This document shows, in pieces, positions 39,173-46,584 of a stretch of 64,000 nucleotides of DNA. The DNA lies in the NCBI RefSeq assembly GCF_024227715.1, contig NZ_CP100448.1, forward strand, positions 372,001 to 436,000. Reading direction: 5' to 3'. The position numbers and the translations under genes are program-made. Origin of the DNA: Halomarina litorea (GTDB taxonomy: Archaea; Halobacteriota; Halobacteria; Halobacteriales; Haloarculaceae). The stretch's first letter is position 1, and the number at the start of each line of letters is the position of its first letter. The notes beneath the pieces are model-generated. The model was not told the origin of the DNA and searched no databases. It saw only the letters and a list, made by a program, of their open reading frames with translations.

Positions 39173-39292
39173 GGCGGGAGACGTAGTGACCGCACGCGCT
39201 TGAACGTGCGTCAGACTCCTGTCCGACACCGAACCTGTCCGGTCGATTGCCGGTCCACCAACACCTATTGAGCCGCCTCGCGGACTACGGGC

Positions 39293-40132
39293 ATGGTCGA
39301 CAACCAGAGCGGCGCGTTCGACATCGGCGGCGAACTGACCGTCAACCGCCTCGGCTACGGTGCGATGCGCATCACCGGCGAGGACATCATCGGCCGCCCC
39401 GACGACGAGGAGGGGGCGAAGGAGGTCCTCCGGCGGGCCGTCGACCTCGGCGTGGACTTCGTCGACACCGCCGACTCCTACGGGCCGGGGGTCAGCGAAC
39501 GCCTCATTCGCGAGTCGGGCATCGCCGACGACGCCGTAATCGCCACCAAGGCGGGCCTCCTGCGGAATCGCGAGGGCGACTGGCTCCCCCACGGCGACCC
39601 GGACTACATCCGAAATCAGGTGCTCTGCTCGCGGGACCGCCTCGGGGTGGACACCATCGACCTCTACCAGTTCCACCGCCCCGACCCCGACACGGACTTC
39701 GAGGAGAGCGTCCAGGCGTTCGCGGAACTGAAAGACGACGGCCTCGTGGACCACGTCGGCCTCTCGAACGTCTCCGTCGACCAGTTGGAGACGGCCCGCG
39801 ACGTCGTCGAGGTGGCGACCGTCCAGAACCGCTTCAACGTCGGCAACCGCGAACAGGACGACGTGCTGGAGGCGTGCGAGGAGTACGACATCGGGTTCGT
39901 CCCGTGGTTCCCGCTGGGCGCGGGCGACCTCGGGGAGAAAGGCGAGGTGGTCGAGGAGATCGCGGAGGCCCACGACGCCTCGATGATGCAGGTGGGCATC
40001 GCGTGGCTGCTCCAGTTCTCCGACGTGACGCTCCCCATCCCCGGGACGTCGAGCGTCGACCACCTCGAAGAGAACGTCGCCGCCTCGTCGCTCGAACTCA
40101 CCGACGACGAGATGGCCCGCCTGAGCGAGTAA
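39293..40132 (+). CDS. aldo/keto reductase
   Basis: A 279-residue (beta/alpha)8 oxidoreductase. The catalytic tetrad is visible: Asp and Tyr in VDTADSYGPG near residues 58-64, Lys in IATKAGLL near 85, and His in YQFHRPDPD near 126. The NADPH-binding C-terminal part includes LPIPGTSSVDHLEENV near 245. It should reduce aldehydes or ketones with NADPH; the substrate is unknown. The gene stands alone and is preceded by a normal leaderless-type start. Confidence 0.9.
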   Translation: MVDNQSGAFDIGGELTVNRLGYGAMRITGEDIIGRPDDEEGAKEVLRRAVDLGVDFVDTADSYGPGVSERLIRESGIADDAVIATKAGLLRNREGDWLPHGDPDYIRNQVLCSRDRLGVDTIDLYQFHRPDPDTDFEESVQAFAELKDDGLVDHVGLSNVSVDQLETARDVVEVATVQNRFNVGNREQDDVLEACEEYDIGFVPWFPLGAGDLGEKGEVVEEIAEAHDASMMQVGIAWLLQFSDVTLPIPGTSSVDHLEENVAASSLELTDDEMARLSE

Positions 40133-43627: not shown

Positions 43628-43701
43628 TCCGCTCTCCCCGATTTGAACGGGGGACAAGTCGATCTACAGTCGACTGCTCTGCCAGACTGAGCTAAGAGCG
43701 G
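43628..43701 (-). tRNA. tRNA-Tyr (GTA)
   Basis: A 74-nt cloverleaf on the minus strand: acceptor CCGCTCT pairs with AGAGCGG, discriminator A; D arm with AGCTCAG; anticodon stem GTCGA/TCGAC with loop CTGTAGA giving anticodon GTA; T arm with CGTTCAAATCG. No intron and no encoded CCA. Two further copies of its 3' end lie just beyond it. Confidence 0.95.
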
Positions 43702-43799
43702 TCTATCAGACTGGAACAGACGATAGAATTTAACGCTTATCCTTCGCCGTCGGCGGGTTCCACACCACGTGACAGACGAGCGTATGACGTTGTGGCAAG

Positions 43800-43812
43800 A
43801 TTGATATATAGA
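43800..43812 (+). promoter_or_regulatory. TATA box of cdrL-like gene
   Basis: ATTGATATATAGA lies about 25-37 nt before the ATG at 43837, a strong archaeal TATA element in an AT-rich stretch. Confidence 0.55.
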
Positions 43813-43836
43813 CAGTCACAACGCGATACCGACCGA

Positions 43837-44427
43837 ATGAGCAAGATAACGTTCCGCGCCGACGATGACCTCGTCGCACGTCTGGAGGAGTACGACACCT
43901 CCAAGAGCGAGGTCATGCGGGAGGCGCTCCGCGCGTACTTCGCGGAGACCGCGGGTGAGACCGACTCCGCACCCGCGGACGGCACGGAACGGCCCGACGG
44001 CGAAGCGACGGACTCCATCGACGCGTACCTCCACGAGCGCATCGACACCCTTGTCGAGGACCGTCTCGACGCCCTGCTCGCAGACCGCCTCGACGGCGTC
44101 GGACGCACGCCGCAGGACATCAACGTCAACGTCACCGTCGACGGACAGCCCCGCGTGGCGGACGACGAGGCGTCCGACCGAGAGGGGGAAGCGCGTAAGA
44201 CGACCGCCCCGGACCGGCGGCCGGCGGAGGAGGCCGGAGAGTCGCGTAAACAGTGCAACCAGTGCGGAGAGGCCGTCCCGGCGTCTGCGGTCTACTGCTC
44301 GAACTGCGGCGAGAAGACCTCTCACCGGGTCTTCTGTGACTGTGGCGACGAGCTCCGCTCGGACTGGGGGTTCTGCCCCGGGTGCGGACGTCGGACACCG
44401 GCGGCCGACGTGCTCGACAATCCGTAA
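43837..44427 (+). CDS. cdrL: CdrL-like ribbon-helix-helix protein with zinc ribbons
   Basis: A 196-residue protein. The N-terminal RHH DNA-binding domain (KITFRADDDLVARLEEYDT, SKSEVMREALRAYF) spans about 1-35, followed by an acidic coiled linker (HERIDTLVEDRLDALLADRL). The C-terminus holds zinc-ribbon cysteines (CNQCGEAV, YCSNCGEKT, FCDCGDEL, FCPGCGRR). Its place upstream of the short RHH gene and ftsZ2 matches the cdrL-cdrS-ftsZ2 arrangement known in Halobacterium and Haloferax. It is expected to be a transcription factor of cell-division genes. The upstream in-frame start is rejected because it overlaps the TATA box. Confidence 0.85.
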   Translation: MSKITFRADDDLVARLEEYDTSKSEVMREALRAYFAETAGETDSAPADGTERPDGEATDSIDAYLHERIDTLVEDRLDALLADRLDGVGRTPQDINVNVTVDGQPRVADDEASDREGEARKTTAPDRRPAEEAGESRKQCNQCGEAVPASAVYCSNCGEKTSHRVFCDCGDELRSDWGFCPGCGRRTPAADVLDNP

Positions 44428-44477
44428 ACGTGTCTACGGGCGCTCTCGCGTACGTATACGCGACCCACTCGACCGGC

Positions 44478-44484
44478 GTCTTAC
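44478..44484 (+). promoter_or_regulatory. GTCTTAC operator-like site 1
   Basis: One GTCTTAC copy about 15-20 bp upstream of the TATA box of the cdrS-ftsZ2 operon. It is part of an array of identical 7-mers in both orientations between cdrL and cdrS. Confidence 0.45.
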
Positions 44485-44494
44485 GATAGACACA

Positions 44495-44508
44495 ACTTTT
44501 ATTATACC
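44495..44508 (+). promoter_or_regulatory. TATA box of the cdrS-ftsZ2 operon
   Basis: AACTTTTATTATAC is the only strong TATA-like element between cdrL and cdrS. Transcription would start near 44530, giving a leader of about 130 nt before cdrS (44659). This is unlike the leaderless pattern of the other genes. Confidence 0.55.
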
Positions 44509-44529
44509 CCGGACTATGCAAACACCTGC

Positions 44530-44547
44530 GTAAGACGGTCGTCTTAC
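44530..44547. promoter_or_regulatory. GTAAGAC/GTCTTAC palindrome, operator-like site 2
   Basis: GTAAGACGGTCGTCTTAC is a perfect 7-bp inverted repeat with a 4-bp centre, placed at the expected transcription start of the cdrS-ftsZ2 operon. RHH proteins bind as dimers to such short repeats, so CdrS or CdrL is a natural candidate for binding here. Confidence 0.6.
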
Positions 44548-44596
44548 ACGATTGCCGGGCCGGGCGAAACCGCTCGCCGTGGTGCGGTTCTGACGT

Positions 44597-44639
44597 GTAA
44601 GACGTGTGAGTCGCCGTGGCAGACGGCTCGTCGTCTTAC
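44597..44639. promoter_or_regulatory. GTAAGAC (44597) and GTCTTAC (44633) operator-like sites 3 and 4
   Basis: Two further copies of the 7-mer in opposite orientations, 44597-44603 and 44633-44639, lie in the leader. The last ends 20 nt before the cdrS start codon. Another copy lies within the cdrL coding sequence at 44195-44201. Confidence 0.5.
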
Positions 44640-44658
44640 CCAAAGGGGAAATACAACA

Positions 44659-44835
44659 ATGGAGCGTGTGACACTACGGATTCCGAAGCAGCAGATCGAA
44701 GAGGTCGAACGCATGGTCGAGACGGGGGAGTACCCCAATCGCAGCGAGGCCATCCGTGCGGCCGTCCGCGACATGATCAACGAGGAGAACGCGGAGCGCC
44801 GCCGCCAGAACAAACGGCCGTGGGCGAGGGCCTGA
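44659..44835 (+). CDS. cdrS: CdrS, short ribbon-helix-helix cell-division regulator
   Basis: A 58-residue RHH protein ([39 protein letters not shown]) consisting of little more than one ribbon-helix-helix domain. The stop codon directly precedes the ftsZ2 ATG with no gap. This matches CdrS, which in Halobacterium and Haloferax is encoded with ftsZ2 and regulates cell-division genes. It is expected to be a dimeric DNA-binding protein. The leader upstream carries an array of GTAAGAC/GTCTTAC repeats that are plausible binding sites. Confidence 0.88.
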
Positions 44836-46035
44836 ATGCAGGACATCGTCAACTCGGCGCTCGAGAACGCCGAGAAGGAGTCCCGCAAGATGTCCGAGTC
44901 GGACGCGGCCGACGACGAGTTCGGCGACCCGCGCATCGTCATCGTGGGCTGTGGTGGGGCCGGTAACAACACCGTCAACCGCCTGTACAACATCGGCGTC
45001 GACGGTGCGGACACCGTCGCCATCAACACCGACAAACAGCACCTCAAGATGATCGAGGCCGACACGAAGATTCTCGTCGGCAAGTCCCTCACGCAGGGGC
45101 TCGGTGCCGGTGGCGACCCCTCGATGGGCGAGCGCGCCACCGAGATGGCCCAGGGCACCGTCAAGGACGTGCTGGGCGACGCCGACCTCGTGTTCGTCAC
45201 CGCCGGTATGGGTGGCGGTACCGGCACGGGCGCGGCCCCCGTCGTCGCGAAGATCGCGAAGGAACAGGGCGCAATCGTCGTGGGCATGGTCTCGACGCCG
45301 TTCAACGTCGAGCGTGCCCGGACGGTCAAAGCCGAGGAGGGCCTAGAGAAGCTCCGCAACGAGGCGGACTCCATCATCGTCCTCGACAACAACCGCCTGC
45401 TGGACTACGTCCCGAACCTGCCCATCGGCAAGGCGTTCTCGGTGATGGACCAGATCATCGCCGAGACGGTTAAGGGCATCTCGGAGACCATCACCCAGCC
45501 TTCGCTCATCAACCTCGACTACGCCGACATGACCGCCATCATGGGGCAGGGCGGCGTCGCGGTGATGCTGGTCGGCGAGACGCAGGACAAGAACAAGACC
45601 GAGGAAGTGGTCCGCGACGCGATGAACCACCCCCTCCTCGACGTGGACTACCGCGGTGCGACGGGCGGTCTCGTCCACATCACCGGCGGCCCCGATCTCA
45701 CGCTGAAGGAGGCCGAGGGCATCGCCCAGAACATCACCGAACGCCTCGAGGCGAACGCGAACGTCATCTGGGGCGCGCGCATCCAGGAGGAGTACAAGGG
45801 CAAGGTCCGCGTCATGGCCATCATGACCGGCGTCCAGAGCGCCCAGATCCTCGGCCCGACGACCCAGAAACAGGCCGACGCCTCCCGCGAGGCCATCGAG
45901 GGTGGGTCGAACGGGTCGAACGCCGCGAACGGCACCCAGGAGACGTACAACACCGGCGAGACCATCGAGTACGGCGAGACCGACGGCGGCCGCTCGGAAC
46001 TCGAACAGAACAACGGGCTGGACGTCATCCGATAG
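44836..46035 (+). CDS. ftsZ2: cell division protein FtsZ2
   Basis: A 399-residue tubulin-like GTPase. It has an N-terminal extension, the nucleotide-binding [13 protein letters not shown] segment, the tubulin signature GGGTGTG at residues 126-132, and the T7 catalytic loop [11 protein letters not shown], followed by [12 protein letters not shown] disordered Asn/Gly/Thr tail (after about 360) ends in [11 protein letters not shown]. The linkage to cdrS identifies it as FtsZ2, which drives constriction with FtsZ1 in haloarchaea. It polymerises at the membrane through partners such as SepF (known from the family). A T-rich run follows the stop. Confidence 0.95.
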
Positions 46036-46116: not shown

Positions 46117-46584
46117 CTATCTGGTACTGTTCCGCACGCCGTCGTCGGGCGTAAGACGTGCTCCCTCGACTCGCTCCTTGAGCGCCGCGTTCATCGCCCA
46201 GAACCCCCGTTCGACGGCGGGACCGACTCGTCGGTTGATGAGGCCGACGAGCACCCCGGAAAACACCTCGTCGTGGCGGAGGCGGGTAGTGCCGTCGTCG
46301 CGTCTCTCCAGCGCGAACGAGTGTTCCCCGTCGTACAGGCCCGGAACGAGGAGGTCACCCCGCCAGCGGAGTTCGCTCCCGTCGGCGACGAGGACCGTCG
46401 GACGGAACGTCGTCGCCCGCGCGCCCGGCGGGGTCAGGCGGACGGCCAACCGCTCACCCTCGCGTGGCTCCCCCTCGACGGTCATGAAAGGGTTCCACTC
46501 GGAGTAGGCGGCGAAGTCGGTCAGCACGTCCCACACTACTCGGGGTGGAGCGTCGATGTCGATGCTCGTCTCTATCCGTCTCAT
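46117..46584 (-). CDS. SRPBCC (START-like) domain protein
   Basis: A 155-residue helix-grip protein (MRRIETSIDIDAPPRVVWDVLTDF, YSEWNPFM, WRGDLLVPGLYDGEHSF, RHDEVFSGVL). It binds a hydrophobic ligand such as a lipid or an aromatic compound, or acts as a polyketide-cyclase-like protein; the ligand is unknown. The ATG at 46584 is the family start. It is convergent with ftsZ2, and the intergenic T-run separates them. Confidence 0.85.
   Translation of the reverse strand: MRRIETSIDIDAPPRVVWDVLTDFAAYSEWNPFMTVEGEPREGERLAVRLTPPGARATTFRPTVLVADGSELRWRGDLLVPGLYDGEHSFALERRDDGTTRLRHDEVFSGVLVGLINRRVGPAVERGFWAMNAALKERVEGARLTPDDGVRNSTR

Follow-up and report, generated by a model that had tools for sequence, protein, structure and literature searches.

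An array of the 7-mer GTAAGAC (GTCTTAC on the opposite strand) lies upstream of the cdrS-ftsZ2 operon in Halomarina litorea, and its conservation shows that it is a genuine operator of this operon in haloarchaea, ancient and almost universal among them. The window in which it was found is a stretch of 64,000 nucleotides, where cdrL, cdrS and ftsZ2 follow one another in the same direction. The reading that we consider probable as a whole is that the array is read by CdrL, that CdrS reads a sister operator, that the two regulators are joined in a feedback loop, and that the array is a retuned form of an ancestral array with which CdrS regulated itself. The features of the locus are as follows.

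43837..44427, plus strand: cdrL, with an RHH N-terminus, a CdrL_M middle region and a double zinc ribbon
44478..44484, minus strand: single GTCTTAC upstream, immediately 5' of the BRE/TATA region
44497..44506, plus strand: TATA-like box TTTTATTATA of the cdrS-ftsZ2 promoter
44530..44547, unstranded: inverted pair GTAAGAC-GGTC-GTCTTAC at the core of the array, with 11 bp between the half-site centres, covering the predicted start
44548..44658, plus strand: remaining predicted 5' leader (foldable RNA)
44597..44603, plus strand: leader site GTAAGAC near -60
44633..44639, minus strand: leader site GTCTTAC near -25
44659..44835, plus strand: cdrS, a 58-aa RHH regulator
44836..46035, plus strand: ftsZ2, tubulin/FtsZ family

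CdrS scored above the RHH_1 cut-off (35.8 bits compared to 20.5), and CdrL scored above the CdrL_M and DZR cut-offs with an RHH_1 score of only 18.1 bits (cut-off 20.5). When the 231-bp gap between cdrL and cdrS was searched, five copies of the 7-mer were found where about 0.02 are expected, the core-pair half-sites being at 44530 (plus) and 44541 (minus); in 20,000 shuffles of the gap the mean was 0.021 copies and the maximum was 2. Thus, the five positions listed in the first-pass annotation are all present as given and far above chance, and its reading of an array in a 5' leader roughly 130 nt long is supported, as an operator array with a start that is predicted from the TATA box. Across the whole window, where 3.3 copies are expected, 7 were counted, and the 7-mer is not a rare one there. 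The two copies outside the gap are at 44195 (plus), within cdrL, and at 46151 (plus), beyond ftsZ2, and the latter is not conserved, any copy within 400 bp after ftsZ2 being present in just 7 of 79 loci.

The conservation of the array was examined in 80 loci, that is, 79 loci from contigs of relatives and that of the genome itself. The core inverted pair was exact in all 80, with a spacing between centres of 11 bp in 65 loci, 12 bp in 14 and 13 bp in one. The -25 site was kept in 79 of the 80 loci and the -60 site in 53, and an exact upstream leader site was present in 57 in two lineage-specific forms, namely the GTCTTAC form in 32 loci and, replacing it in 25 others, a plus-strand site near -190. 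The first-pass annotation had named absence or random placement of the 7-mers in related genomes as the outcome that would count against it, and this comparison did not refute it. When 242 Halobacteria genomes were searched, GTAAGAC-N4-GTCTTAC was found in 232, as a single copy in 231 and as two copies in one, while the reversed pattern used as a control was nearly always at zero. All 66 pairs that could be placed against cdrS were 95-135 bp before its start codon. Among the ten genomes where the pair was not matched, four carry one or two base changes in a half-site (for three of them, either the spacer is changed too or this is the sole change), five have a two-base spacer, and in one cdrS was not found either. 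Short half-sites repeated about one helical turn apart, which is the layout of RHH operators, are therefore what the pair presents, and cooperative binding is plausible from this geometry; among the other site-to-site distances in haloarchaea no 11-bp regularity was seen. The distance from the centre of the TATA box to the pair was 28-31 bp in 78 loci, and with the box about 29 bp upstream the pair covers the predicted start, from which the leader is predicted to be about 130 nt long. For Hfx. volcanii, strong transcription initiation upstream of cdrS, with a 5' leader, has been reported (PMC8406309).

Which protein reads the array was approached first from published occupancy. In CdrL ChIP-seq of Hbt. 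salinarum the only reproducible site in the genome is the region upstream of cdrS-ftsZ2 (PMC7439475); this signal is region-level and was published without a CdrL motif. The single ChIP site matches the one pair per genome, which lies upstream of cdrS as a CdrL operator should. CdrL is thus the likeliest main reader of the array in haloarchaea. The first-pass annotation had proposed CdrS and/or CdrL, and of these CdrL stands on the ChIP-seq data (PMC7439475), whereas direct autoregulation by CdrS does not, as it was not seen in the ChIP-seq of Hfx. volcanii (PMC8406309); a reading mainly by CdrL is therefore drawn for haloarchaea, and one by CdrS for the ancestral state, from the CdrS-type arrays of relatives that have no cdrL. 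The residues of the DNA-reading ribbon are strongly conserved in both proteins, with R3-T5-R7 in all 81 haloarchaeal CdrS proteins and in 33 of the 35 from elsewhere, and K3, T5, F6 and R7 in 79 of 79 CdrL proteins. The ribbon stretch of CdrS and CdrL aligns without gaps to that of E. coli NikR, in which R3, T5 and T7 contact DNA bases.

The pair is not confined to places where CdrL is encoded. CdrL could not be detected in three haloarchaeal genomes (G001, G002 and G007), and at locus L024 cdrL is not beside cdrS, the upstream gene being tRNA-Tyr as usual. In all four the pair is still exact and the -25 site is retained, and their -60 site is degenerate. This is at odds with the published statement that every sequenced member of the Halobacteria encodes CdrL. 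Since the pair is kept without cdrL, CdrL is not the sole protein that maintains it; at these loci CdrS may also bind the array, perhaps being masked where CdrL is present, or another protein may do so. At L106, L107, L108 and L024 no cdrL lies between tRNA-Tyr and cdrS, and the operator pair is retained. In a small haloarchaeal genome of 1.9 Mb (L114) a second RHH-like ORF was seen upstream of cdrL.

The operator of CdrS, GTCNGAC-N4-GTCNGAC, was deduced from the promoters of published CdrS targets, the ChIP-seq of Hfx. volcanii having given 18 sites that include ftsZ1, dacZ and hisB but not cdrS (PMC8406309). In haloarchaeal ftsZ1 promoters a pair of this type with at most two mismatches was found in 14 of 14, and was exact in nine; it sits in a fixed place just before the BRE/TATA, and shuffles mostly had 3-5 mismatches. 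When three Haloferax genomes were scanned for the exact pattern, 11 sites were obtained, and the genes next to them, named by reading the ORFs, were ftsZ1 in all three genomes and hisB in two; of the remaining sites, one set marks an uncharacterised promoter that all three genomes share, a second such promoter has the pattern in two genomes, and a single site falls in a coding region. Near matches were present at several dacZ loci, and a good pair was not found in psmB promoters, so the motif misses some published targets at this stringency. Compared to the leader array, the CdrS operator has the same architecture and differs by one base per half-site, and GTC-N-GAC is symmetric whereas GTA-A-GAC is not. 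In the 80 cdrS leaders of Halobacteria there were 349 copies of GTAAGAC as against 32 scattered copies of GTCNGAC, which is not what a CdrS operator of the deduced type would give. In text searches of titles and abstracts neither the GTCTTAC nor the GTCAGAC motif turned up in any paper.

The promoter of cdrL itself carries a site of this kind, which in H. litorea is degenerate.

43771..43788, unstranded: CdrS-type pair in degenerate form, GACAGAC-N4-GTATGAC, lying in the promoter of cdrL 12 bp ahead of its TATA-like box

A CdrS-type pair with at most two mismatches was found in the cdrL promoters of 42 of 79 genomes, compared to 0.4 expected, and it typically lies 9-12 bp before the TATA-like box. 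The site is absent from nearly all Natrialbales-type genomes, and in Haloferax it is down to about one half-site, which is consistent with cdrL missing from the CdrS ChIP list of Hfx. volcanii. Other sequences of the CdrS type were also observed. In the window, at 39210-39227, the pair GTCAGACTCCTGTCCGAC lies about 65 bp before an aldo/keto-reductase-like ORF that starts near 39293, and elsewhere in the same genome a pair at C1:1403405-1403422 (L254) is upstream of an S-layer-glycoprotein-like ORF. In the leaders of Natrialbales-type genomes (L033, L034, L041 and others), the interval from the -60 to the -25 site holds a CdrS-type half-site, GTCTGAC, within a highly conserved stretch, GCGTCTGACAGGGGCGCGC, that can also form a hairpin.

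Outside Halobacteria a different picture was obtained. In a phylum-wide sample of 148 genomes, CdrS was present in 45 outside Halobacteria, and CdrL was not found outside Halobacteria, save for two weak matches to the zinc-ribbon part. No GTAAGAC pair was found before cdrS in these relatives; instead, their cdrS leaders carry arrays of GTCNGAC downstream of the TATA box. In 28 non-redundant leaders of this group there were 59 exact copies of GTCNGAC where 0.4 are expected, and 120 of 153 pairwise distances (78%) were exact multiples of 11 bp, as against 6% in shuffles, the shuffles being mononucleotide. Taking the 35 cdrS leaders of relatives that have no cdrL, there were 76 copies of GTCNGAC and one of GTAAGAC, as a CdrS operator would give. 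The simplest reading of these arrays is autoregulation by CdrS, with dimers that would be stacked one turn apart, and the likeliest ancestral reader would then be CdrS. In several of these genomes (L123, L127, L135, L148 and similar ones) cdrS is divergent from a CobD/HisC-like PLP-enzyme gene about 200 bp away; CdrS has been linked to cobalamin genes in Hfx. volcanii (PMC8406309).

This raises the question whether in haloarchaea, too, the GTAAGAC array is read mainly by CdrS, which would regulate itself directly with CdrL as a competitor or a partner. The presumed role of CdrS at the homologous array outside Halobacteria fits with this, as do the four haloarchaeal loci that retain the pair and the -25 site without cdrL and the 1.3- to 2.2-fold fall of ftsZ2 upon deletion of cdrS in Hbt. 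salinarum (PMC7439475). We nevertheless regard it as unlikely, because cdrS is absent from the 18 CdrS ChIP-seq sites of Hfx. volcanii and because the targets that CdrS does occupy carry GTCNGAC and not GTAAGAC. The same four loci would also be accounted for if the array were read by another DNA-binding protein and the ChIP signal of CdrL were indirect. This is quite improbable, as the array has the spacing of the CdrS operators and departs from them by a single base per half, and a search by regular expression only, over up to about 1.5 kb upstream of cdrS in 35 non-Halobacteria relatives, gave no RHH-like gene.

The copy of the 7-mer in the cdrL coding region, which the first-pass annotation had mentioned in passing, proved to be conserved as well.

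44195..44201, plus strand: GTAAGAC within cdrL (CGT AAG ACG, Arg-Lys-Thr), 335 bp 5' of the pair

It was present in 43 of the 80 loci, or 43 of 74 cdrL coding sequences, compared to about three expected. It falls in a variable linker, always on the plus strand and in a constant frame, and is spelled CGT AAG ACN. The arginine codon of this Arg-Lys-Thr was CGT in 49 of 49 cases, whereas CGT makes up 15% of the other arginine codons of cdrL; the probability of such a bias is near 1e-40 under independence, a value that takes no account of shared ancestry. At three loci, L045, L056 and L073, the residue is serine and the 7-mer is nonetheless intact. This codon bias and the intact 7-mer despite the change of residue show that the constraint acts on the DNA, independently of coding. 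The internal site and the plus-strand site near -190 are exclusive, as 25 of 25 genomes with the latter are without the former. Measured from the internal site, distances to the pair form clusters at 284, 318 and 329 bp, and phasing with the pair is not claimed since too few independent lineages lie behind these clusters. The operator embedded in cdrL may work via looping to the promoter.

The leader also has properties of a folded RNA, and the 7-mers could be kept as RNA if the -60 and -25 sites and the halves of the pair formed hairpins in the leader through which translation or processing was controlled. The stretches of leader between the sites are better folded than their dinucleotide shuffles (z of -1.99 and -1.33, as against 0.04 for a coding control), each clade alignment folds better than its own column shuffles, and the operator repeats contribute to this signal. 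The cdrS-ftsZ2 operon of Hbt. salinarum has also been reported to be under post-transcriptional control (PMC8303175). When 43700-44900 was searched against Rfam there was no match near threshold and one sub-threshold match that is due to chance. The reading was demoted because the folding signal lacks an excess of compensatory changes: in 49 leaders, and by clade, these were not above shuffles, and the invariant core pair gives no covariation. The -60 site decays while the -25 site stays exact, one of the 7-mers is upstream of the promoter and another is inside cdrL, and the same type of site is found upstream of the TATA box in the ftsZ1 and cdrL promoters. An RNA structure may exist in the leader, and the leader may add post-transcriptional control as the first-pass annotation suggested, but judged from these patterns RNA structure is not what explains the 7-mers, and their being kept as RNA is very improbable. 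That they are a chance cluster of a 7-mer that is not rare window-wide has virtually no likelihood left, given five copies in 231 bp and the in-register conservation in 80 loci and 232 genomes by which it is refuted.

From the site sequences, their spacing and phasing and the published occupancy of CdrL and CdrS, we infer the following circuit. The array would be the operator through which RHH regulators act on the cdrS-ftsZ2 operon. Dimers of CdrL would occupy the inverted pair over the predicted start as neighbours spaced by one helical turn, and would probably also bind the single sites, which are found in the leader, upstream of the TATA box and within cdrL. From the position of the sites, CdrL most likely represses or gates transcription of cdrS-ftsZ2. 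CdrS would read GTCNGAC-N4-GTCNGAC at ftsZ1, at its further targets and in the cdrL promoter, where a site upstream of the BRE/TATA would fit an activator. A loop is thereby predicted in which CdrS acts on cdrL and CdrL on cdrS-ftsZ2, and which would set the supply of FtsZ1 and FtsZ2. A probable ancestor is an autoregulatory CdrS array with GTCNGAC sites phased at 11 bp, of the kind that relatives without cdrL would have retained, and in Halobacteria this array would have been retuned to GTAAGAC, by one base per half-site, as CdrL joined. In its most specific form, which we offer tentatively and rate somewhat short of an even chance, an ancient CdrS autoregulatory array was taken over by CdrL in the ancestor of Halobacteria through that single base, the old code stayed in use by CdrS at ftsZ1 and is also its code at cdrL, the two near-identical codes wire an FtsZ loop, and the operator embedded in cdrL may loop to the promoter.

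Little is understood of how archaea control the supply of their division tubulins, and few regulators besides CdrL and CdrS are known. If this reading is true, it provides candidate operator codes for both proteins, accounts for the differing sites in the two ChIP-seq studies, predicts a feedback loop, and gives a natural case in which a related regulator takes over a promoter via a one-base change of its operator.

One of the closest known systems is CdrL at cdrS-ftsZ2 of Hbt. salinarum (Darnell et al. 2020, PMC7439475), which is the same locus, with a single ChIP site, and most likely the same interaction; that study is without a motif, the array, the geometry at the start site, the site inside cdrL or the ancestral form. 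The CdrS regulon of Hfx. volcanii (Vogel, Liao et al. 2021, PMC8406309) has a symmetric motif upstream of ftsZ1, dacZ, hisB and others, and the two 7-mers 11 bp apart that were deduced from its promoters have the architecture of the array. The haloarchaeal leader array has GTA where the CdrS sites have GTC, and the CdrS sites lie upstream of their promoters whereas the pair of the array lies over the predicted start. In Sulfolobales aCcr1, an RHH repressor of cdvA, is likewise an archaeal RHH protein that acts on a division gene through a recognition sequence in the promoter, as described in two reports (PMC7617429, PMC12796447); the division machinery is different. Among bacteria, the heptads of the omega regulator and the hexads of RelB (PMC4803016, PMC2812701) are, like the array, short repeats in an operator that overlaps the promoter. 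In bacterial RHH operators one dimer binds each repeat and the dimers line up next to one another along a single face of the helix, as proposed here. Arc, MetJ and NikR have further bacterial operators of this short-repeat type. Unlike in these bacterial systems, two paralogous regulators with nearly identical codes would share the circuit here, and the sites span several hundred bp into the neighbouring gene.
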